Source: Geobacteraceae bacterium (GTDB lineage: Bacteria > Desulfobacterota > Desulfuromonadia > Geobacterales > Pseudopelobacteraceae). Taken from it: a DNA stretch of 64,000 bases. The stretch's first letter is position 1. The number at the start of each line of letters is the position of its first letter. The notes beneath the pieces are model-generated. The model was not told the DNA's origin. It saw only the letters and a list, made by a program, of their open reading frames with translations, and did no database searches. Both the position numbers and the translations under genes were made by a program. The stretch lies in NCBI GenBank assembly GCA_013336525.1, contig JAAXTM010000001.1, positions 62,001 to 126,000 of the forward strand, in the 5' to 3' direction. This document shows positions 1,458 to 40,123 of the stretch, in pieces.

Positions 1458-1942
1458 TGAAGAAAATAGCTGTTTATCCAGGGTCCTTTGATCCTATAAC
1501 GTATGGTCACCTCGATATAATCAAACGCGGACTGACTATTTTTGACGAAATTATAGTTGCAGTTGCTAAAAATTCGCAAAAAAATGCGCTGTTCACAACT
1601 GATGAAAGGGTTGAGTTGATTCAGGATGTTGTTAAAGAGGAGGGAAGGGTCACGGTAGATACCTTCAGCGGACTTCTTATCGATTACGTGTCTTCCCGTG
1701 GTGCCCATGTCATCATTCGCGGCCTTCGCGCAATATCAGACTTTGAGTATGAATTTCAGATAGCTCAGATGAACAGCAGCATTGGAAGGGAAATTGAAAC
1801 GCTATTCATGATGACATCCCTGCAGTATGGCTATCTTTCCTCCTCAATCGTCAAGGAGGTATGCTCACTGAACGGTAATATTGACAAATTTGTTCCGTCA
1901 GAAGTGAAAACAGCACTGCGACAAAAATACGGTTTAGCATAA
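1457..1942 (+). CDS. coaD: Phosphopantetheine adenylyltransferase CoaD
   Basis: CoaD transfers AMP from ATP to 4'-phosphopantetheine to give dephospho-CoA, the penultimate step of coenzyme A synthesis in the cytoplasm. The 161-residue length is typical. The N-terminal nucleotidyltransferase motif is present (AVYPGSFDPITYGH, with TYGH as the T/HxGH motif). So are the substrate-binding RGLRAISDFEYEFQ block and the C-terminal SSSIVKEV motif corresponding to ISSTxVR. It overlaps the rsmD stop by one base. Nothing is unusual. Confidence 0.96.
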   Translation: MKKIAVYPGSFDPITYGHLDIIKRGLTIFDEIIVAVAKNSQKNALFTTDERVELIQDVVKEEGRVTVDTFSGLLIDYVSSRGAHVIIRGLRAISDFEYEFQIAQMNSSIGREIETLFMMTSLQYGYLSSSIVKEVCSLNGNIDKFVPSEVKTALRQKYGLA

Positions 1943-2002
1943 GATCAACTTAAATACAGCCGGGCTCTGCAGATATGCCCGTTTTCACTGATGAGGTGCA
2001 TA

Positions 2003-2197
2003 ATGATTACACAGGAAATGATAATTGCAGATATCATCGCACAGCACCCAGAGACACTGCCGGTTTTTAAATTGTATAACCTTGAGTGTAACGAATGTCA
2101 GATTGCCGATCTTGAAACTTTGGGACATGGCGCAGGTGTTCACAAGATTGATATTGGCCAGCTACTGGATTCTCTTAACAGCGCTTTGAATAAATGA
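2003..2197 (+). CDS. DUF1858-type small redox-disulfide domain protein
   Basis: This 64-residue protein starts MITQEMIIADIIAQHPET and carries a CNEC motif after FKLYNLE. That matches the DUF1858 pattern, known as a hybrid-cluster-protein-associated redox disulfide domain, with its x-CxxC motif about 30 residues in. In-frame ATGs lie at 1991 and 2003. GAGGTG at 1993-1998 is a good Shine-Dalgarno for the second one, so 2003 is preferred. The protein is probably a cytoplasmic CxxC protein; the family has no firm function. The PilZ gene follows 33 bases later and may be co-transcribed. Confidence 0.75.
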   Translation: MITQEMIIADIIAQHPETLPVFKLYNLECNECQIADLETLGHGAGVHKIDIGQLLDSLNSALNK

Positions 2198-2230
2198 CCT
2201 TTTCATCTGGAATTAGCGGAGTCATAACAA

Positions 2231-3334
2231 ATGAGTGATATGGAGCTCTTTTTACGCTATTTCCCGGTAGGAAAAAAGGTTGGTGTCGGTATTCCATTGC
2301 CCAATGCGGAAGTTTTTAAAGATTGGGCAATTATTCATAACATTGATGAGGATCTTGTTTCGCTGCAGCTTTCCAGAGACGTGCTGCCGTCAGGCGTATC
2401 GTTGCGTTATGGGCAGATACTTGAATTGCGGGGCGGTAGTGATGGTAACGGATATTGCTGCAGAGCTATTGTAGTTTCTGAAGGTGAAGCAAGTGAGTTG
2501 TTGTTACGGCTGATTGGTGAAATTGTATCGGATGAACTGCGCGAATTTTACCGGATCGATGCCTTTCTTCCGATTAAATTTTTCGTCAGCCATGAACAAA
2601 ATATTGATCGACTCCACAAACAGTGGGAAGAACGGCGGGCTCACCGTCAGCGGTTTGAGCTTGAGAAAAAAGATCAACGCTGGAGCCGTGTTGTACTGCC
2701 TGCAGGTAATGAACTACCGCAGGATAATCCTCATAGTACATTTAAAACTGAAATTGATGAAATGGTTCCGGCTGAGATGCCGGCTGCAGCAGAATCGGAT
2801 GATTCCTGGGATGTTATAATACCACTGGCAGCAAACATCAGCGGAGGTGGGCTACGCATTACTACTCCCCAGTATTTCGAGGAGGGGGAGTATTTACTGC
2901 TTGAAATTTTCGTACCGTCACCAGAGCGAGTGGTAGACGTTATCGGTCGGGTTGTGTTTGCTAATCGCAACTATGCTGCGGGGAAGAATATTGAATATTT
3001 CAATACCGGTGTGCAGTTTGTGTATCTGGATGAGCGTGACCGGGATGCGATAGTTAGTTATATCTCCAATATCCAATTAAAAAGAATCAGGCAGCTTCGT
3101 GAGAAATATCTATTCAGAGGGCCGCTCGATAACGATGAAATATTTAGTATACCCCGAAGGTTTGGCCTAAAAAATTCTGTTATCATTACTATTTCAGCTC
3201 TACTTTTTGTGCTGCTTGCTGCACTGTTGATTAACTATTTCTGGTATTACGTCCAAGTACATCCGAAGGGTGAGATTCAAAGAGATTTTGAAGAAGGTGT
3301 CAAGAAATATAGAGAGCAGCAAAAGCCGAATTAA
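2231..3334 (+). CDS. Membrane-anchored PilZ-domain protein, probable c-di-GMP receptor
   Basis: The 367-residue protein has a YcgR-like N-terminal region (about 1-100). A c-di-GMP binding RxxxR motif follows (R104 and R108, in LREFYR). After ~90 charged residues comes the second PilZ motif NISGGG (202-207) with the rest of the beta barrel to about 285. One transmembrane segment lies near 316-342 and a short charged tail ends the protein. The two PilZ motifs usually sit close together, so the inserted segment (about 118-195, highly charged, partly helical) is unusual. With a C-terminal anchor the PilZ part should face the cytoplasm. It converges with recB, only four bases separating the stops. 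Confidence 0.82.
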   Translation: MSDMELFLRYFPVGKKVGVGIPLPNAEVFKDWAIIHNIDEDLVSLQLSRDVLPSGVSLRYGQILELRGGSDGNGYCCRAIVVSEGEASELLLRLIGEIVSDELREFYRIDAFLPIKFFVSHEQNIDRLHKQWEERRAHRQRFELEKKDQRWSRVVLPAGNELPQDNPHSTFKTEIDEMVPAEMPAAAESDDSWDVIIPLAANISGGGLRITTPQYFEEGEYLLLEIFVPSPERVVDVIGRVVFANRNYAAGKNIEYFNTGVQFVYLDERDRDAIVSYISNIQLKRIRQLREKYLFRGPLDNDEIFSIPRRFGLKNSVIITISALLFVLLAALLINYFWYYVQVHPKGEIQRDFEEGVKKYREQQKPN

Positions 3335-37858: not shown

Positions 37859-38068
37859 TTAGTCGTCTTTCTTTATTCGTACTACCTGGCTGACTCCTGC
37901 CATGACCTCAATTTCATGATCATTCAGTGTGTCGGTGTCACCAATCACGCCGATGATAGTGCGGTTGGCTCCGGTTGACTGATGAATGTCGAAATCCCGG
38001 GTAATCAGATACTCCTTGATGGAATCAAGTGCTATTTCTTCTGCATGTTTCTTCATAATAATCAACAT
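37859..38068 (-). CDS. Free-standing DAHP-synthase-type N-terminal (ferredoxin-like) regulatory domain
   Basis: The 69-residue protein MLIIMKKHAEE... with RTIIGVIGDTDTL and SQVVRI matches the ferredoxin-like N-terminal domain of Thermotoga-type DAHP synthase (compare RTVIGIIGD and SVVRV, from memory). In those enzymes this domain mediates feedback inhibition by tyrosine. Here the gene stops after the domain; no catalytic domain follows in any frame, the next gene being carbonic anhydrase. AAGGAG lies 10 bases before the ATG. It is last in nadB - chorismate mutase - this gene, 15 bases after the mutase. A regulatory subunit for aromatic synthesis is an inference. Confidence 0.75.
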   Translation of the reverse strand: MLIIMKKHAEEIALDSIKEYLITRDFDIHQSTGANRTIIGVIGDTDTLNDHEIEVMAGVSQVVRIKKDD

Positions 38069-38083
38069 GATATATATGCTCCT

Positions 38084-38362
38084 TTAATCTTCTTCTTTAT
38101 GTGACATGATGCGTTCCAGTCGACGTGATTCATCGACTACACGCTCAAACATCCGGACAATAGCCTCATCATCCAGCGGGCCTGGGTTATCTTCCTTCAT
38201 GCGGTTAAAAATTCTTTTTTCTCGAGCCGGGTCAAACACCGGCAGGTTCAGCTCTTTCTTGGCATGTCCGATTTCAAGAGCCAGCCGTGCTCGCTCGTTG
38301 AAAATACGCAACAGCACATCATCCAGAAGATCAATCCTTTTGCGAATTTCATTTATATCCAC
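38084..38362 (-). CDS. Chorismate mutase, AroQ type
   Basis: A 92-residue stand-alone AroQ-fold chorismate mutase, which converts chorismate to prephenate for phenylalanine and tyrosine. The pattern IRKRIDLLDDVLLRIFNERARLALEIGHAKKELNLPVFDPARE includes the active-site R, R, K, and a C-terminal helix VVDESRRLE. The length is typical of the monofunctional form. It lies 14 bases after nadB and before a DAHP-synthase-type regulatory domain, an unusual arrangement. Confidence 0.92.
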   Translation of the reverse strand: MDINEIRKRIDLLDDVLLRIFNERARLALEIGHAKKELNLPVFDPAREKRIFNRMKEDNPGPLDDEAIVRMFERVVDESRRLERIMSHKEED

Positions 38363-38376
38363 AGTTGCAGCTCCTT

Positions 38377-39972
38377 TTAAAACTGTTTCTTAACAAAGCT
38401 GTCTTTTTTTCCTTCTACATCATCCAGGGAAGGGTAGTCCAGATTATAATGCAGTCCCCTTGATTCCTTGCGCATCTGCGCACAGGTTACTATCAATTCG
38501 GCCACTGTGGCGATGTTGCGCAGCTCAATCAGGTCGGAGGTTACATTAAAATTCCAGTAATACTCCTCAATCTCACCCTGAATCAGCTTTATACGGCTCA
38601 TTGCACGTGCCAGGCGCTTGTCAGAGCGAACAATTCCAACATAGTTCCACATGGTACGCCTGATTTCATCCCAGTTCTGGGAGACTACTACCATCTCATC
38701 ACTGTTGGTGGCGGTGCCGGAATCCCAGGCCGGTATTTCACGATGGTCGCTTACCAGTGCCTTGATAGCTTCGCAGGAATGACGATAAGCGCGTCCTGCA
38801 TAAACTGCTGCTTCCAGCAGTGAGTTACTGGCAAGACGGTTAGCACCGTGAAGGCCGGTAAAAGCGGTTTCACCGATAGCGTACAGGCCGGGTATGTCTG
38901 TCTCTGCATCAAAGTTTACAGCAACGCCTCCACAAAGGTAGTGGGCGGCAGGAACGACGGGAAGCCAATCTTTGGTCATATCCAGGCCAAATTCCATACA
39001 GGTCTGATATATGTTAGGAAAGCGGTTGCGCACTACGTCGGCCGGTTCATGGGTTATATCAAGGAAGGCACAGTCATCGCCGCTTATCTTCATCTCATTG
39101 TCAATTGCACGAGCTACAATATCACGGGGCGCCAGATCCTTTAATTTGTGATATTTTTCCATGAACGCGGTTCCATCGCGTCGGCGCAGGATTGCACCTT
39201 CACCGCGGACTGCCTCAGAGATAAGAAATGATTTTGCCAGTGGATGAAACAGGGTAGTGGGGTGAAACTGCATGAATTCCATGTTGGCAATCGTGGCCCC
39301 GGCACGATAGGCCATGGCAACACCATCCCCGGAAGCCACGTCCGGATTGCAGGTATAAAGATATACTTTTCCGGCTCCACCACTGGCCAGGAGAGTTATT
39401 TTAGAACTGAAGGTCACAACGTTATCGCCGGGGATATTCAATACATAAGCACCCAGACAGCGGTTCTGCTCAAGCTGCCGGCGTTCAATTTTTGCAGATG
39501 TTATCAAGTCGATGGCAATATGGTTCTCATAGATTGTAATCGCCGGATGCTGTCTGACCGCTTCAACAAGCGCCCGCTCTATTTCACGTCCAGTGATGTC
39601 TTCGGCATGCAGAATACGACGGGCGCTATGCCCCCCTTCACGGGTAAGGTCGTATGATTCGCCGCTGGTGGTGAATTTAACCCCCCACTCAATCAGATTG
39701 CGAATGGTCTGGGGCCCTTCCTCCACAACCATCCTGACGACATCTTCATGACAGATCCCGGCCCCCGCAACGAGAGTATCCTCGATATGGGCGTCAAATG
39801 AATCCTCGTCGGAATATACAGAGGCAATGCCGCCCTGAGCATACTTTGTTGCTGATTCAGAAATATCACGTTTGGTAACAATGGCGACGCTGCCATGGTC
39901 GGCTGCCTGGAGGGCATAGGAGAGACCGGCAATGCCGCTGCCGATAACGAGGAAATCGCTTTCAATGCGCAT
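38377..39972 (-). CDS. nadB: L-aspartate oxidase NadB
   Basis: The 531-residue flavoprotein oxidises L-aspartate to iminoaspartate, the first step of NAD synthesis. It has the FAD motif [15 protein letters not shown], the succinate-dehydrogenase-like [13 protein letters not shown] block, the HPTTLFHP block and the C-terminal helical domain. AAGGGAAG supports the ATG at 39972 over an in-frame TTG 18 bases upstream. No fumarate-reductase iron-sulfur partner gene is present, which fits NadB. Under anaerobic growth fumarate is the likely electron acceptor. Confidence 0.93.
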
Positions 39973-40123
39973 GAGTAAACTTCCCTTCAAGGGTTATGTA
40001 TACAAAAATTCGGATTATTGACTTGTAGGGCAGATTTGTCAAGAGGAGAGGGGGGGCGTAGAGCTTGATATATGTTTATTTTAGTATTAACAGTCGAACT
40101 GGATCAATTATCGGAACAGCCGT

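Follow-up and report, generated by a model that had tools for sequence, protein, structure and literature searches.

What does the regulatory domain of a DAHP synthase do when it is encoded by itself? In the window analyzed here, a stretch of 64,000 nucleotides from a Geobacteraceae genome, the ferredoxin-like (FL) domain of such an enzyme forms a protein of its own, and its gene directly follows one for an AroQ-class chorismate mutase. The fusion of a sensor to an enzyme is a familiar route to allostery. This bacterial class appears to show the reverse, a separate sensor of 69 residues that is tied to an enzyme by linkage. We asked which enzyme the detached domain might serve.

The FL gene and its neighbors

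The three genes of the run lie on the minus strand in the order nadB, aroQ, FL, with gaps of 14 nt between nadB and aroQ and 15 nt between aroQ and FL (Table 1). A gene for a carbonic anhydrase-like (Pro_CA) protein lies 59 nt downstream of the FL gene. In one relative (L004), a gene at 1713-2516 (+) that looks like lgt shares 4 nt with the end of the FL gene, and the run continues beyond FL.

Table 1. Features of the FL locus, in positions of the window
Feature	Position	Strand	Basis and remarks
Pro_CA (carbonic anhydrase-like) protein, 202 aa	37191-37799	-	Pfam, 54.2 bits; no NCBIfam match at E ≤ 0.001
FL, standalone DAHP-synthase ferredoxin-like domain protein, 69 aa	37859-38068	-	PF18152, AF2 model, structure matches
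HQSTG motif of FL, codons 29-33	37970-37984	-	Aligns with T. maritima H29-I30-S31-K32-G33
AGGAG, likely ribosome-binding site of the FL gene, within the 15-nt gap	38079-38083	-	Read from the sequence
aroQ, AroQ-class monofunctional chorismate mutase, 92 aa, GTG start	38084-38362	-	PF01817, 83.8 bits
nadB, L-aspartate oxidase, upstream gene of the same run	38377-39990	-	NF006567, 780 bits; alternative ATG start at 39972
Promoter-like TTGACA-17-AATAAT upstream of nadB	40014-40042	-	Consensus scan, 11/12 matches, weak; 4 promoter-like sites in the region versus 4.8 expected by chance, no excess

The first-pass annotation of this DNA had read the 69-residue product as a Thermotoga-type FL domain and nothing more, with no catalytic domain after it, encoded 15 bases after an AroQ chorismate mutase. 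Both identifications stand, and the positions, strand, length, and spacing were correct. PF18152 was the sole Pfam family on the FL protein at E ≤ 0.001 (71.6 bits against a cut-off of 27), and the match spanned the whole profile (1 to 67 of 67). The ACT domain PF01842 gave no match on the protein at the same threshold; in the available text of one paper, the T. maritima FL domain is also named an ACT domain (PMC5493349). Pfam placed no PF00793 (DAHP_synth_1) barrel on the 69-residue chain or following it, the next gene downstream being the Pro_CA-type gene, and the four PF00793 places in the source genome were all away from the FL gene.

The fold was predicted with AlphaFold from 47 standalone sequences (pLDDT 93.5, pTM 0.81). 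The annotation had suggested a comparison with 1RZM-type domains, and these were indeed the top matches: Foldseek placed the T. maritima-type DAHP synthases 4grs (TMq 0.87) and 1rzm (TMq 0.84) first, and VIA-align gave them Z scores of 12.3 and 11.4, respectively; a designed ferredoxin fold, the unrelated chain that came next, reached 8.5. Structural matches with Z ≤ 8.5 (designed folds, ACT subunits, NikR, and others) were discarded as evidence. With the FL (ACT-like) domain of T. maritima DAHP synthase (1rzm, 1vr6, 4grs) the window's FL thus has in common the fold, the full-length profile, and the residues H29, S31, G33, R36, G40, and G43; identity in the structural alignment is 28%, and the window's FL differs in not being joined to a barrel.

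A standalone-type FL match, judged by score, was found in 252 of the 277 class genomes (E ≤ 4.9e-16), a tally made by eye from the genome table of the search with alignment A1, with frames seen among the matches listed. The remainder comprised 23 genomes with only weaker matches (E ≥ 1e-9) and 2 with none. When all hits were listed for 39 chosen class genomes, each had one standalone-type FL, and the other hits fell in frames of 207 to 794 residues, as in FL-type DAHP synthases. One genome of the same genus (G219) had two standalone-type matches, on C11 and C346 (6.9e-45 and 6.2e-44); either the gene is duplicated there or the draft, which is 76% complete and 5% contaminated, is a mixture.

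Against 43 near relatives, the FL gene had a median pN/pS of 0.076 and a maximum of 0.168; these values are low but rough, with synonymous sites near saturation (median pS, 0.74). In an FL-domain tree, the standalone proteins formed one clade separate from both DAHP synthase paralogues of the class (98/95), in an unrooted tree of 67 columns and 156 rows in which very long outside branches (L303 and L304) fall inside the standalone clade. Both are divergent DAHP synthases of the FL type, and their FL match is longer (219 nt, ∼35 bits). The available text of a Geobacter paper says that a protein of this type clusters with the domain of one DAHP synthase paralogue, data not shown (PMC2700814). 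We did not retain that nesting, since the standalone proteins had their own clade in our tree, with the caveat of few columns and no root.

The annotation had also considered that the gene might be a frameshifted DAHP synthase. Relatives carry the same short gene, however, and the source genome has two intact FL-DAHP synthases elsewhere; the class-wide standalone match and the low pN/pS rule out a frameshift or relic. The lack of a catalytic barrel is what would be expected of a decayed or truncated DAHP synthase without function, but we see hardly any chance of this given a gene matched in 252 of 277 genomes, with low pN/pS and a clade of its own (98/95, the two long outside branches notwithstanding).

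PF01817 was the only Pfam family on AroQ and covered profile positions 1 to 79 of 80, and the four best solved chains were all chorismate mutase (CM) domains of CM-DAHPS enzymes (2d8d, 5gmu, 5j6f, and 3nvt). The catalytic residues of E. coli CM are R11, R28, K39, D48, R51, E52, S84, and Q88. Across 35 rows, R7, R24, K35, D44, R47, E48, and E83 of AroQ were invariant and S79 nearly so. At the place of E. coli Q88, the AroQ rows carry Glu (E83), a mapping made by eye that is consistent with the alignment of 1ecm 10-88 to query 6-83. On this mapping, AroQ would keep the catalytic positions that are expected, but for a Glu where the E. coli enzyme has Gln88.

Pairing and transfer of aroQ and FL

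Among 146 distinct AroQ-FL pairs, the same AroQ subtype lay directly upstream of FL on the same strand in every one (146/146). The gap between the two genes had a median of 6 nt (range, -13 to 231); it was ≤ 20 nt in 122/146 pairs, and the genes overlapped in 21. Four FL loci had no aroQ call: in three (L050, L095, and L128), the contigs end 100, 100, and 7 nt upstream, respectively, and the fourth is L191. In that locus (G186 C43), nadB and aroQ are both split by frame breaks before an intact FL, probably through poor assembly.

The reverse search used the AroQ profile (A5) on 60 genomes: 25 class genomes without a detected FL, 6 genomes of family f51 without FL and 2 with it, and 27 others of the phylum. 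The AroQ subtype (E < 1e-40) was present in four of the 60, namely the two f51 genomes with FL plus G189 and G051. Thus, 23 of the 25 class genomes without a detected FL also were without the AroQ subtype, and in the two exceptions the contig ends 66 nt (G189, L311) and 30 nt (G051, L314) after the AroQ match. The last contig bases of G051 are the first codons of an FL gene. In G189, at the end of C61, aroQ is followed by a tandem repeat of CCAGTGA units, and no FL start occurs in the remaining 66 nt. Within family f51, the subtype was missing from 6/6 listed genomes without FL and present in 2/2 tested genomes with FL, and the AroQ profile did not find it in any of the 27 other genomes of the phylum (0/27). 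The remaining chorismate mutase hits of this search had E ≥ 2.7e-21 and lay in frames of at least 240 residues. Across the 60 genomes, then, the AroQ subtype was never found where FL was shown absent. It is important to note that co-absence in draft genomes is partly trivial and not independent, as neighbors share assembly gaps; gaps can account for less in family f51, whose genomes are 90 to 99% complete, and in the 27 other genomes of the phylum, at 93 to 100%.

All 187 loci with a standalone FL, duplicates counted and each 1.7 to 10.2 kb long, were without a DAHP synthase barrel, and the same queries detected DAHP synthase in 123 other loci. An AroQ-FL fusion was sought as a Rosetta stone. 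None occurred among the 146 pairs, in all of which the AroQ frame ends at or near the FL start, and where long open frames surround some FL genes, inspection of 9 loci showed them to come from read-through in a different frame.

The link to nadB was looser. This gene lay ≤ 700 nt upstream of aroQ in 124 of the 141 distinct pairs with enough upstream DNA and was not beside the pair in the other 17, f51 included. Six loci chosen for an FL closely similar to that of the window (L037, L046, L055, L056, L058, and L065) have an intact pair and no nadB within this distance.

We also sampled 395 genomes of the phylum. Standalone FL (E < 1e-30) turned up there in the 17 listed class members and in 9 genomes from other groups, every one of them in family f51; 6 further listed f51 genomes had weaker FL matches only. 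Eight of the nine f51 pairs were read. In each, aroQ adjoins FL, and the upstream DNA covered, ∼1.5 to 5 kb, showed no nadB. In a tree of joined AroQ and FL sequences, these 8 pairs fell within the order of the source organism (100/100), with the rest of the class outside that order's group. They grouped with three rows of the order (97/90), and f51 did not form one clade. These observations point to movement of the pair as a unit, and we read them as a joint transfer of aroQ and FL. The direction was likely from the class to f51, because the class has the pair throughout.

The H-x-S motif and the aromatic pathway

The FL domain of T. maritima reads H29-I-S31-K-G33. We take H29 and S31 to touch the tyrosine ligand, and S31 presumably sets the preference for Tyr over Phe. 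Both residues were present in 147/147 distinct standalone FL proteins, and HQSTG (codons 29-33) was invariant in 145/145; in the comparison that contained these 145, all 27 FL domains of class DAHP synthases had I31. The segment with H29 and S31 is the longest invariant block of FL, which suggests ligand binding and not pure packing. According to the accessible portions of two papers, two T. maritima ACT (FL) domains jointly form the tyrosine sites (PMC5493349), and Phe or Tyr bound to the FL domain restricts substrate access (PMC5526877).

H29 and S31 occurred together in 0/48 distinct FL domains of class DAHP synthases (28 H/I, 13 E/I, and 7 others), a nonrandom sample made up of the best PF18152 matches plus 20 picked. 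In family f51, the FL domains of the DAHP synthases had H-x-S in 15/15 sampled cases, from genomes with and without a standalone FL. Elsewhere outside the class, neither of two sets of DAHP synthase FL domains was random: H-x-S was seen in 18/22 of a high-scoring set, chosen largely among the top hits of the standalone profile and hence biased to the motif, and in 2/30 of a low-scoring set, from 28 low-scoring genomes searched with Pfam's own model. We had entertained the idea that the class synthases lost the motif as the free FL took over. The f51 result weakens it: since f51 synthases keep H-x-S with or without a standalone FL, the free protein does not simply replace a lost DAHP synthase sensor.

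Besides AroQ, the source genome encodes one more chorismate mutase domain of this class, within PheA. PheA is built as CM+PDT+ACT, and TyrA as PDH_N+PDH_C without ACT or CM. The phenylalanine branch thus has mutase and sensor on one chain, and the tyrosine branch has a separate mutase and dehydrogenase; if our reading of FL is right, the tyrosine branch also has a separate sensor. Besides the two FL-DAHP synthases, the genome encodes a type I-alpha DAHP synthase (L307 1462-2514 (-)). In alignment, this enzyme keeps Pro at chain position 148 of AroF, the position that is reported as P148T in G. metallireducens and whose role we take from the available text of PMC2700814. The type I-alpha enzyme may therefore itself sense tyrosine, and another tyrosine sensor may exist in the cell.

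Proposed function and alternatives

We propose that FL is a trans-acting, tyrosine-sensing regulatory subunit of the tyrosine-branch chorismate mutase AroQ, and on the sequence evidence we hold this with moderate confidence. AroQ would be the cell's second chorismate mutase and would serve the tyrosine branch. On the pattern of T. maritima DAHP synthase, tyrosine would sit between the two FL domains of a dimer, and the liganded form would then bind AroQ and change its activity, most simply as feedback inhibition. The parts of this scheme differ in strength. That FL acts on AroQ is likely; that FL dimerizes around tyrosine and that the liganded form inhibits AroQ are less sure. Binding to AroQ, tyrosine as the ligand, and the direction of the effect are points that we infer. 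When AroQ was read through its stop into FL and folded as one chain (monomer, 25 paired rows), the model had a pTM of 0.62 and a weak joint (pLDDT, 69 to 74), too weak to show docking.

The first-pass annotation had left the partner undecided between the mutase and a separate DAHP synthase. Linkage, co-occurrence, transfer without nadB, and pathway logic strongly favor the mutase, and there was no barrel in 187/187 loci. The DAHP synthase alternative would have FL, alone or with AroQ, dock on the I-beta DAHP synthases as mixed FL-FL dimers or as a DAHPS-CM-FL complex, and synthases without the motif in their own FL domain would in this way come under the control of tyrosine. The occurrence of H-x-S in the free FL and in none of the 48 sampled class domains fits such docking, as does the kinship of AroQ to the CM domains of CM-DAHPS enzymes, and in M. 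tuberculosis the chorismate mutase is described as binding DAHP synthase without a covalent link (PMC5493349, in the text available). We nevertheless consider docking rather unlikely, because the conserved neighbor is aroQ, with no barrel at any standalone-FL locus, and because f51 synthases retain their own motif (15/15).

The tight pairing of AroQ and FL would also be expected if FL were a ligand-free structural or activating subunit that completes a weakly active AroQ. A precedent is the M. tuberculosis enzyme, which has < 1% of typical efficiency and needs its partner, according to the portion of PMC7762937 available. The longest invariant block of FL carries H29 and S31, however, which suggests ligand binding, and by the mapping above AroQ would keep its catalytic positions, Glu standing in for Gln88, so that a subunit of this kind seems improbable. 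We think it very unlikely that FL acts elsewhere, in transcription or on another enzyme, and has only an operon in common with aroQ: folds of the ACT/FL type are present in regulators, and Foldseek gave a weak match to the TyrR N-terminal domain (2jhe, E 9.5e-3), but the pair persists without an adjoining nadB in 17/141 distinct pairs, those of f51 included.

If the proposed regulation of AroQ by FL works, the pair would be a portable two-gene tyrosine switch for chorismate mutase. It would complete the scheme of aromatic-synthesis control in Geobacter-type bacteria and offer a natural case for the gain and shedding of allosteric domains. A wider reading, which we put forward tentatively and judge to be on the doubtful side, is that AroQ and FL form an obligate, horizontally mobile module in which FL dimers latch round tyrosine, gate the mutase, and may also dock on FL-type DAHP synthases; were it true, one detached sensor would set both pathway entry and branch point in trans.

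The idea that FL regulates the mutase was already printed in 2009 for Geobacter and is not a discovery from scratch; Aklujkar et al. (2009) proposed it for a Geobacter metallireducens gene pair. In the available text, Gmet_1955 (GSU1828) is a second chorismate mutase that may serve tyrosine synthesis, and the adjacent Gmet_1956 (GSU1829) resembles the Phe/Tyr-responsive domain of T. maritima DAHP synthase and possibly regulates the mutase (PMC2700814). By description this is the same gene pair as ours, the locus tags being equated without a sequence match, and the proposal stands in that text as a remark on two species, with no test given (PMC2700814). Our literature search on standalone FL proteins and these locus tags, outside which most subscription papers lay, returned only this paper on the pair, again with no test. 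Our analysis adds how widely the pair occurs and how tightly it is linked, together with its apparent transfer and the contrast in the motif.

Three known systems bear comparison. IlvH-type subunits are detached amino-acid-binding regulatory subunits, and the free ACT subunit of this type (AHAS small subunit, 2f1f) is likewise a detached domain of similar topology acting as a separate subunit; it belongs to a different family from FL, and its VIA Z of 7.5 is in the common-fold range. In the CM-DAHPS complex of M. tuberculosis, as the accessible text of PMC5493349 describes it, a small AroQ enzyme likewise depends for activity on a noncovalent regulatory partner; that partner is a whole type II DAHP synthase, whereas the candidate partner in the window is a 69-residue domain only. 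The nearest PDB sequences to the window's AroQ are those of CM-DAHPS fusions (B. subtilis AroA(G), Listeria, and the Thermus CM domain 2d8d), and unlike in these fusions, the CM and FL of the window are two free genes, neither of them fused to a DAHP synthase.
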